DNA of 64,000 nt, taken from Pseudomonas benzenivorans. GTDB taxonomy: Bacteria > Pseudomonadota > Gammaproteobacteria > Pseudomonadales > Pseudomonadaceae. The stretch covers positions 124,001-188,000 of the forward strand of contig NZ_FNCT01000004.1 in NCBI RefSeq assembly GCF_900100495.1, given 5' to 3'. A model generated the notes under the pieces. That model was not told the DNA's origin. It saw only the letters and a list, made by a program, of their open reading frames with translations, and searched no databases. The position numbers were made by a program, and so were the translations under genes. This document shows, one piece after another, positions 42,345 to 44,737 of the stretch (positions are counted from its first letter, which is position 1; every line of letters begins with the position of its first letter).

Positions 42345-42695
42345 ATGACCAACAAGATTATTCAGCAACTCGAAGCCGAGCAGATGGGCAAAGAGATCCC
42401 GGCCTTCGCCCCGGGCGACACCGTGATCGTCCAGGTGAAAGTGAAGGAAGGCGACCGTCAGCGTCTGCAGGCGTTCGAAGGCGTGGTTATCGCCAAGCGT
42501 AACCGTGGTCTGAACAGTGCCTTCACCGTGCGCAAGATCTCCAACGGTGTTGGTGTCGAGCGTACTTTCCAGACCTACAGCCCGCTGGTCGACAGCCTGG
42601 CTGTCAAGCGTCGCGGCGACGTGCGCAAAGCCAAGCTGTACTACCTGCGTGACCTGTCCGGTAAGGCCGCACGCATCAAGGAGAAGCTGGCTTAA
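42345..42695 (+). CDS. rplS: 50S ribosomal protein L19
   Basis: A 116-residue ribosomal protein ([26 protein letters not shown]) that lies at the 30S-50S interface. Last gene of the rpsP operon; TTAGGAG stands 5 bases before the ATG and a strong terminator follows. Confidence 0.98.
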
Positions 42696-42910: not shown

Positions 42911-43591
42911 TTACTGGCGCAGACTGATTTTCAGCGAGGCTTGTGACAGGTCGATGTCGTTCAGGCTCAAGCTGCCGAAGCTTTGCCCCTGCGGCGCACC
43001 GGTGACGCGGATGTTGTCGAAACGCAGCTCGCCAATCGAGCTGGGCAGGCGGACGTCGACCGAGCCGTCCGGGTTGACTGTCGAAGACACCCTGGCAGTG
43101 TCGTACAGCACGTCCTTGGTCGAGGTTTCCGCCTCCAGGCCATTCAGCACCGGCATCACCAGCTTGGCCAGTTGTCCGATCGTGTCCAGGCCGTCGCCGT
43201 TCTCGGCTTGCATGAACAGGCCCTGCAGCACCTCGTCCAGGCCCTGGGCGCTGACGTTGCTCATCTCCCGGTCACTCAATGGCTGCAAGCCGCGCGGGGT
43301 TTCCTGGCGGCTAATGCTGGCGGTGGACTGCATGCGCTGGATATCGGCGCTGACCGTCTGAAAGGGGCTCATCAGGGCGGCCACCAGGGTGGCGGCCAGG
43401 CGCAGGTTGCTCTGCTTCTTCAGGGCCTTGCTCAGCTGCTGCTGGGTCAGCAGCCCTTGCTCGATAAGTACTTCGCCCAGTCGCTGGCGGCTGACGAGCT
43501 GCACTTTGATCGCGGCGTCCAACTGTGCGGAAGTGATCAGACCCTTGTTGATCAGGATCTGGCCGAGGCGGGAGTGAATATGTCTGGACAT
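42911..43591 (-). CDS. Membrane protein with N-terminal MshEN (c-di-GMP-type) domain and exported C-domain
   Basis: 226 residues. The N-terminus holds two 24-residue motifs, 8-31 (R-L-G-x2-L-I-x2-G-L-I-x4-L-x3-I-x2-Q) and 37-60 (R-L-G-x2-L-I-x2-G-L-L-x4-L-x3-L-x2-Q), separated by exactly five residues. This is the MshEN signature that binds cyclic di-GMP in MshE-type ATPases. A hydrophobic segment follows (about 63-82), then about 145 residues of unknown fold with L-S-D-R-E-M-S-N-V-S-A-Q-G near 105-117, and a beta-rich end. No ATPase domain is present. Stands alone between rplS and xerD. Confidence 0.75.
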   Translation of the reverse strand: MSRHIHSRLGQILINKGLITSAQLDAAIKVQLVSRQRLGEVLIEQGLLTQQQLSKALKKQSNLRLAATLVAALMSPFQTVSADIQRMQSTASISRQETPRGLQPLSDREMSNVSAQGLDEVLQGLFMQAENGDGLDTIGQLAKLVMPVLNGLEAETSTKDVLYDTARVSSTVNPDGSVDVRLPSSIGELRFDNIRVTGAPQGQSFGSLSLNDIDLSQASLKISLRQ

Positions 43592-43840: not shown

Positions 43841-44737
43841 ATGTCGACCCTGGATCACCCCCTGATTGAGCGTTTTCTCGAGGCGTTGTGGTTCGAGAAA
43901 GGCTTGTCGCCGCATACCCGCTCGGCCTACCGCAGTGATCTCGCGCACTTCAATGCCTGGTTGGCTCAGCGCGGCCTGGAGTTGCCGCAGATCGGTCGCG
44001 AGGCGATCCTCGATCACCTGGCCTGGCGCCTGAACGAGGGCTACAAGGCGCGCTCCACGGCGCGTTTTATTTCCGGCTTGCGCGGGTTTTACCGCTTCTT
44101 GCTGCGTGAAGGGTTGATCGCTGTCGATCCGACTTTACAGGTGGACTTGCCGCAACTCGGCCGGCCGCTGCCGAAATCCCTCTCGGAGGCCGATGTCGAG
44201 GCGCTGCTGGCGGCGCCTGAGCTGGACGACCCGATTGGCTTGCGCGATCGCGCCATGCTCGAGGTGCTGTATGCCTGCGGCTTGCGGGTCAGTGAGCTGA
44301 TTGGCCTGACCCTGGAGCAGGTCAACCTGCGCCAGGGCGTGCTGCGGGTAGTCGGCAAGGGCAGCAAGGAGCGTCTGGTGCCGCTGGGCGAGGAGGCGAT
44401 CGCCTGGATCGAGCGCTACAGCAAGGAGGCGCGACCGTTCCTGCTCGATGGCAAGCCGAGCGACGTGCTGTTCCCGAGTCTGCGCGGCGCGCAGATGACC
44501 CGGCAGACCTTCTGGCACCGGATCAAGCACCAGGCCCGGGTCGCCGGCATCGCCAAGAGCCTGTCGCCGCATACCCTGCGGCATGCCTTCGCCACCCATC
44601 TGCTCAATCACGGTGCGGATTTGCGCGTGGTGCAGATGCTCCTGGGCCATAGCGACCTGTCGACTACGCAAATCTATACCCACATCGCTCGCGCACGTTT
44701 GCAGGAGTTGCATGCCGAACATCACCCGCGCGGCTGA
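43841..44737 (+). CDS. xerD: Site-specific tyrosine recombinase XerD
   Basis: Acts with XerC at dif to resolve chromosome dimers under FtsK control. The 298 residues have the SAM-like N-domain (L-S-P-H-T-R-S-A-Y-R-S-D-L) and the catalytic domain with Arg in G-L-R-V-S-E-L, Lys in G-K-G-S-K-E-R, H-x2-R in L-S-P-H-T-L-R-H-A-F, His in L-G-H-S-D-L-S-T-T and Tyr in I-Y-T-H. The xerD-dsbC-hom-thrC order marks it as XerD, not a phage integrase. Confidence 0.96.
   Translation: MSTLDHPLIERFLEALWFEKGLSPHTRSAYRSDLAHFNAWLAQRGLELPQIGREAILDHLAWRLNEGYKARSTARFISGLRGFYRFLLREGLIAVDPTLQVDLPQLGRPLPKSLSEADVEALLAAPELDDPIGLRDRAMLEVLYACGLRVSELIGLTLEQVNLRQGVLRVVGKGSKERLVPLGEEAIAWIERYSKEARPFLLDGKPSDVLFPSLRGAQMTRQTFWHRIKHQARVAGIAKSLSPHTLRHAFATHLLNHGADLRVVQMLLGHSDLSTTQIYTHIARARLQELHAEHHPRG

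Follow-up and report, generated by a model that had tools for sequence, protein, structure and literature searches.

A c-di-GMP receptor domain adjoining a signal-peptide-like segment in the Pseudomonas benzenivorans ortholog of PA3740

The stretch of Pseudomonas benzenivorans DNA analysed here (64,000 nucleotides, hereafter the window) encodes a protein of 226 amino acids in which a c-di-GMP receptor of the MshEN type runs into a segment resembling a Sec signal peptide. Judged by synteny and sequence, the gene is the ortholog of Pseudomonas aeruginosa PA3740. The reading that we prefer, at a little under an even chance, is that a cytoplasmic c-di-GMP receptor is coupled to the export of a DUF6160-like domain: ligand binding would alter the presentation of the signal peptide and hence export or processing. 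The receptor motif and fold, the anatomy of the signal peptide, the remote relation to DUF6160 and the reuse of the junction in other proteins were computed here. The receptor itself is known; what comes after it, namely the signal-peptide-like junction, the DUF6160-like tail and the reuse of the arrangement, was not found in the literature searched. The features are the following.

42911..43591, minus strand: open reading frame of 226 amino acids, the PA3740 ortholog, made up of an MshEN_N part, a signal-peptide-like segment and a DUF6160-like tail.
43499..43570, minus strand: MshEN motif I (aa 8-31), recognised from the translation, the published consensus and an NF053729 match over aa 8-60.
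43412..43483, minus strand: MshEN motif II (aa 37-60) with Gln60 at its end, recognised from NF053729 and the consensus; a modelled helix begins at aa 50.
43346..43411, minus strand: signal-peptide-like segment (aa 61-82) with Arg64, a core from aa 65, Pro76, and Ala82 at position -1.
43241..43288, minus strand: aa 102-117, LQPLSDREMSNVSAQG, similar to the post-signal motif of DUF6160 proteins.
42923..43072, minus strand: aa 174-223, which hhalign aligns with the C-termini of short DUF6160 proteins.
42345..42695, plus strand: neighbour that we take to be rplS, adjoining the gene in 42 of the 44 orthologous loci; the other two loci end there.
43841..44737, plus strand: neighbour that is presumably xerD, on the other side of the gene in 44 of 44 loci.

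The open reading frame with two MshEN motifs, as proposed in the first-pass annotation, is real. According to the list of open reading frames and the translation it starts with ATG. An in-frame ATG likewise stands at the start of the match in 43 of the 44 orthologous loci, the exception (L061) having it four codons upstream. Between aa 31 and aa 66 the window gene has no start-type codon, and at any one position of this region such a codon is common to at most six of 45 sequences. A misassigned start was rejected on the grounds of the conserved ATG and of the lack of start-type codons at aa 31-66. The same annotation had raised the possibility of a cleaved signal behind a misassigned start; at most half of this applies: the signal-like segment is there, but the start agrees with that of the orthologs. 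In the genome contigs 48 related loci were found, of which 44 match nearly the whole protein with 63-81% identity, the match of the remaining four being restricted to the motif region. Most of the 44 are labelled Pseudomonas, while for some the label goes no further than Pseudomonadaceae, Pseudomonadales or Gammaproteobacteria MAG. The family is patchy, with members in 18 of 398 genomes of the genus at E 1e-20 or better. The alignment of 34 sequences referred to below (A2) contains the window protein and 33 of the 44 orthologs, the other 11 being omitted mostly for close likeness.

The place beside xerD and rplS in P. aeruginosa PAO1 is, we assume, that of PA3740. The ortholog in P. aeruginosa PA7 (L052) has 72% identity and also lies beside xerD. 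In 15 of the 44 loci a Na+/H+ antiporter gene stands between the family gene and xerD; at this frequency it was dismissed as an obligate partner. The protein, treated at first as unknown, has a literature: PMC5013675, in the part available, describes PA3740 as a swarming protein whose c-di-GMP-binding motif has the form LxxxLxxQ, its MshEN being joined to an uncharacterised domain, and an excerpt of a review gives LKKALKKQTNLR as its c-di-GMP-binding peptide (PMC8789108). Residues 53-64 of the window protein are identical to this peptide at 10 of 12 positions. Since c-di-GMP binding by PA3740 is in print, the receptor part is no discovery, and novelty of the receptor itself was ruled out. According to excerpts of further papers, the PA3740 MshEN domain is only "probably functional" (a legend from 2026, PMC12943098), the transcript is raised in a stringent-response mutant (PMC7122816) and lowered in a motor mutant (PMC3174259), and deletion of PA3740 leaves biofilm undiminished in fleS/fleR mutants, in which c-di-GMP is raised, the protein being called PilZ there (PMC8335546).

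The 24-residue motifs reported earlier at aa 8-31 and 37-60, with five residues between them, fit the consensus in the accessible part of Wang et al. 2016 (PMC5013675), where the MshEN domain is described as tandem 24-residue motifs with a five-residue spacer. The ligand-contacting R, L, G and Q and the L..L positions are present in both motifs with one change, Ile28 for Leu. It is the sole deviation, as had been stated; all 34 of 34 sequences in the alignment have Ile28, which is thus a family trait. The NCBIfam model NF053729 (c-di-GMP_motif) gives 63.5 bits against a cut-off of 38 (E 1.1e-17), and a PDB sequence search yields matches to PilF, MshE and PilB. The window gene is absent from the five matches of Pfam PF05157 (MshEN) in its own genome. 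Pfam DUF4388 (PF14332) is barely over its cut-off (26.3 vs. 25 bits; aa 10-99, positions 34-104 of a profile of 122) and is taken as an echo of the MshEN motifs, because the match covers them. The first-pass claim that there is no ATPase agrees with the lack of any match of Pfam or NCBIfam to an ATPase domain (T2SS/T4P traffic ATPase) in the window protein. An AlphaFold model built from the 34 sequences has receptor helices at aa 8-15, 21-33, 38-44 and 50-84; block means of pLDDT are 70-84 over aa 11-60, the mean for the whole protein is 54.9, and the model is good for the receptor part alone. In Foldseek the receptor model comes closest to 5htl, a structure of MshE bound to c-di-GMP (E 0.056, prob 1.00; 54 columns superposed at 1.2 A), and no match is found at E 0.001 or better. 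On the best reading of motif and model, the first ~60 residues would be a cytoplasmic MshEN_N four-helix receptor for c-di-GMP. We infer that the window protein itself binds c-di-GMP; such binding is in print for PA3740 peptides.

The next segment, judged by rule, is built like a Sec signal peptide: a basic n-region, a short core, a helix breaker and small residues at -3 and -1. It starts four residues after the ligand-contacting Gln60 of motif II, with Arg64 at this point and the core adjoining. The core is about 11 residues long (range 10-13), and an invariant Pro closes it. Arg64, Pro76 and Ala82 are invariant in 34 of 34 sequences, and position 80 (-3) is A in 28, I in 3, S in 2 and V in 1 of them. 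Cleavage is predicted between residues 82 and 83, position 83 being Asp in 29 of 34 sequences. Ten of the 22 positions at aa 61-82 are invariant, as are 21 of 53 at aa 8-60 and none at aa 83-100. This pattern can be read in two directions: it draws a sharp boundary at Ala82, yet signal peptides are rarely so conserved, and a segment so unusually conserved for a signal peptide would suit a structured anchor too. Hydropathy (KD19) is 1.13-1.66 with a mean of 1.33 in the 34 sequences, and up to 1.81 in relatives; the N-terminal stretches of DUF6160 proteins that are presumed to be signal peptides (n 27) have a similar value, 1.44. A site of the form [AVSTCLIG]-x-A is found in 36 of 36 junctions (the window included, G681 and G717 excluded for cut or changed frames), but a shuffled stretch yields one in 67% of cases, so that the site alone is weak evidence.

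The first-pass annotation regarded this region as one permanent membrane span. One hydrophobic segment is indeed present, but it is short for a full span, with the low KD19 range given above, and a signal peptide fits it at least as well. A serious rival close to that earlier reading, likened to Alg44 or LapD, is a signal-anchor: the segment would stay uncleaved, and a helix from motif II through the membrane would relay the c-di-GMP state to a periplasmic DUF6160-like domain. We hold this to be rather unlikely, even though AlphaFold models aa 50-84 as a single helix (confidence is low beyond aa 60), conservation of the segment matches that of the receptor and KD19 reaches 1.7-1.8 in relatives; it sits badly with so short a core, closed by an invariant Pro, and with a fixed Ala82 followed by variable residues. 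Of the layout first proposed, an ATPase-less receptor with a hydrophobic segment and a further domain probably outside the cytoplasm stands. Continuous transmembrane signalling does not stand as stated: if cleavage takes place, receptor and tail part, and there is no unbroken chain left to relay a signal through the membrane.

The tail of about 145 residues had been called unrecognised, but it is recognisable in part, as remotely DUF6160-like. Pfam DUF6160 (PF19657) gives 14.2 bits at aa 102-116, below the cut-off of 27. In hhalign, aa 157-226 against 16 short DUF6160 proteins give a probability of 81.5 and a score of 34.0, vs. at most 18.8 in 200 column shuffles and 20.3 on reversal (L109 was omitted from the hhalign set). 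For the same residues the probability is 31.6% against 26 pooled DUF6160 proteins and 5.5% against 10 long ones, while aa 65-226 against the pooled proteins reach 52.6% in a different register. The window gene is not among the DUF6160 matches of its own genome, and an AlphaFold model of the tail alone (mean pLDDT 43.9) is unusable for a fold search. These profile comparisons suggest that the ~144-residue tail is related to DUF6160, remotely and below the Pfam threshold.

At the order level, at least four genomes have, close to the family gene, a second match that covers nothing but the tail. The one in L159 is a tail homolog without MshEN, just downstream of the family gene and with a signal-peptide-like start; in L158 one open reading frame lies between, and the start is signal-like only if translation begins upstream of the ATG taken. 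The plain signal-like N-terminus of the L159 homolog argues against an uncleaved anchor. Together with the DUF6160-like tail it also argues against an ordinary cytoplasmic receptor, the hydrophobic stretch of which would pack into the fold or touch the membrane without any export. This last explanation, for which it may be said that the accessible parts of the PA3740 publications give no localisation, strikes us as very improbable, and lipobox-like and fimbria-like tails behind the same junction weigh against it as well.

These other tails come from a search for the same fusion elsewhere, which the first-pass annotation had suggested and which finds the junction before unrelated tails in other Gammaproteobacteria. 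The proteins examined, among the order- and class-level matches listed, were two tail-only homologs and 43 MshEN proteins whose frames are short or cut by a contig end. A signal-like segment directly follows motif II in 35 of 37 MshEN proteins of the first set (not in G051 and G338) and in two of six of the second (G913b and G859); the frames of G913a, G929, G867 and G1044 extend past the contig ends, and these proteins resemble the ATPase type. The core starts at Gln+5 or +6 in 29 of the 37 junctions, at +3 in seven and at +2 in one, a narrow range that is partly built in, as the register script took only cores within seven residues of Gln; none failed. The 29 control sequences (frames of at least 493 aa) have no such core, with a KD11 mean of 0.32 and a maximum of 1.32, one of them (L197) being read at the wrong place. 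The close register would suit the mechanical coupling required by a signal-anchor.

By eye, some tails are DUF6160-like, others are short and end in Phe, one has a lipobox-like site as well as poly-Ser, and two are fimbria-like. One tail matches fn3 weakly (14.6 bits against a cut-off of 25); the two fimbria-like tails have no Pfam match in the tail, and one of them sits behind three MshEN repeats. In L229 (G859) and L169 (G749), three or two MshEN repeats stand in a row before the signal-peptide-like segment. The "lipo-invert" anchor model of NCBIfam was not accepted for one relative, G695 (18.3 bits, cut-off 37), and the term was found nowhere in the literature searched. The lipobox-like site with poly-Ser in one relative suggests cleavage and so speaks against the signal-anchor. 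A broader reading is that MshEN and a Sec signal peptide form a reusable cassette, in which nucleotide binding at the n-region gates the export or processing of several unrelated surface-type proteins with no need for transcriptional control or a dedicated secretion ATPase; we consider this doubtful, though conceivable. Many junctions are from related genomes, and the cassette is possibly common by descent.

If cleavage always occurs, the fragment of MshEN and signal peptide could instead be a small inner-membrane c-di-GMP effector, with the exported tail independent of it. This would agree with the conserved ligand-contacting positions standing together with a predicted cleavage site, and with the description of PA3740 as a c-di-GMP-binding swarming protein in the available part of PMC5013675. 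We rate it as improbable, as it leaves unexplained why the receptor is kept before several unrelated tails. Freed signal peptides are usually degraded, which also counts against it.

The family and the DUF6160 genes occur in nearly the same genomes. In the genus (398 genomes) the family is found in 18, DUF6160 genes in 19 and both in 17, the exceptions being G261 (family only) and G062 and G338 (DUF6160 only). In the order (390 genomes), among the matches listed, the family is found in 38, DUF6160 in 52 and both in 35; G042, G046 and G665 are without DUF6160 and 17 genomes have DUF6160 only. A family member at this level is a match of at least 150 model positions; G042 is counted via two pieces in one frame, and G665 is included with 164 positions and another kind of tail. 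Fisher p is 1e-26 for the genus and 2e-33 for the order (among the matches listed), with phylogeny ignored. The clearest exception is G062, which is 100% complete and has DUF6160 genes and no detectable family member; the best match of the window protein in it (E 0.85) is that of the tail to a DUF6160 gene.

Several neighbourhoods were also inspected. At least two DUF6160 matches lie within ~4 kb in 18 of the 19 DUF6160-bearing genomes of the genus. By eye, G000:C13 (L079, ~4.9-8.2 kb of the locus) has a cluster of DUF6160-type open reading frames with signal-like N-termini beside a leuA-like one, and G000:C30 (L080, 4.5-8.5 kb) has a 152-aa DUF6160 protein followed by C39-peptidase-like, outer-membrane-like and FadL-like frames, the group standing behind two LuxR/MalT-like regulators. 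In L161 (G730) the family gene is convergent to flgM-flgN with flgA, cheV and cheR nearby (Pfam-confirmed), and L180 (G604) has a similar layout by eye; this neighbourhood is in keeping with the swarming link. In L160 (G721) and L178 (G738) the family gene adjoins secF and secD, with a trxB-like frame on the other side; secF is Pfam-confirmed in L160, while secD, the trxB-like frame and the L178 neighbours were assigned by eye. A PilZ-like neighbour in one outside genome was set aside: it reaches 18.5 bits against a cut-off of 22.5 (E 0.0025), and there is no match for the counterpart in L081.

Returning to the preferred reading of a receptor coupled to export, we infer export, cleavage and c-di-GMP gating of the window protein. 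The last receptor helix, with Gln60, would continue into the Arg64 end and the hydrophobic core of a Sec signal peptide. This signal peptide would export the ~144-residue DUF6160-like domain and would probably be cut behind Ala82. With the receptor placed directly at the n-region, c-di-GMP would affect the handling of the preprotein at Sec; binding most likely changes presentation of the preprotein to the translocon or its release from it. Export or processing of the tail would thereby be tied to the level of c-di-GMP. If true, c-di-GMP would exert its control on individual preproteins as they are being exported, a mode of regulation absent from the titles and abstracts searched. Furthermore, PA3740, a binder without a published mechanism in the parts of the papers available, would gain a testable output, and c-di-GMP would be linked to the uncharacterised DUF6160 proteins of the same genomes. 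Within the literature searched (titles and abstracts only), no title or abstract deals with MshEN followed by a signal peptide, and DUF6160 was found in one paper, solely as an entry in a list.

PA3740 is the same gene by synteny (xerD and rplS), by identity to the PA7 ortholog and by the binding peptide; the accessible parts of its publications make no mention of a signal peptide, DUF6160 or other proteins joining MshEN to a signal peptide. The exported DUF6160 proteins (PF19657) occur in nearly the same genomes as the window protein and resemble it remotely in the post-signal motif and, for the short ones, in the C-terminal end; they have an ordinary N-terminal signal peptide and no receptor, whereas the score of the window protein stays under the Pfam cut-off. 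Alg44 and LapD, to our knowledge, have other receptor domains and no signal-peptide-like junction. LapD resembles the window protein in being a membrane protein whose receptor for c-di-GMP lies in the cytoplasm. The same likeness holds for Alg44, according to an excerpt of PMC4933438. The MshEN domains of the ATPases MshE, PilB and PilF are like the window protein in their tandem 24-residue motifs, five-residue spacer and four-helix fold, but the window protein has no MshEN_C half and no ATPase, and its receptor helix enters a signal-peptide-like segment. In NfrB and EpsG, as in the window protein, an MshEN motif occurs outside secretion ATPases; their NCBIfam models give 33.8 and 22.5 bits on the window protein, far below the whole-protein cut-offs. 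The output of NfrB and EpsG is an enzyme, whereas that of the window protein is a short, probably exported domain.
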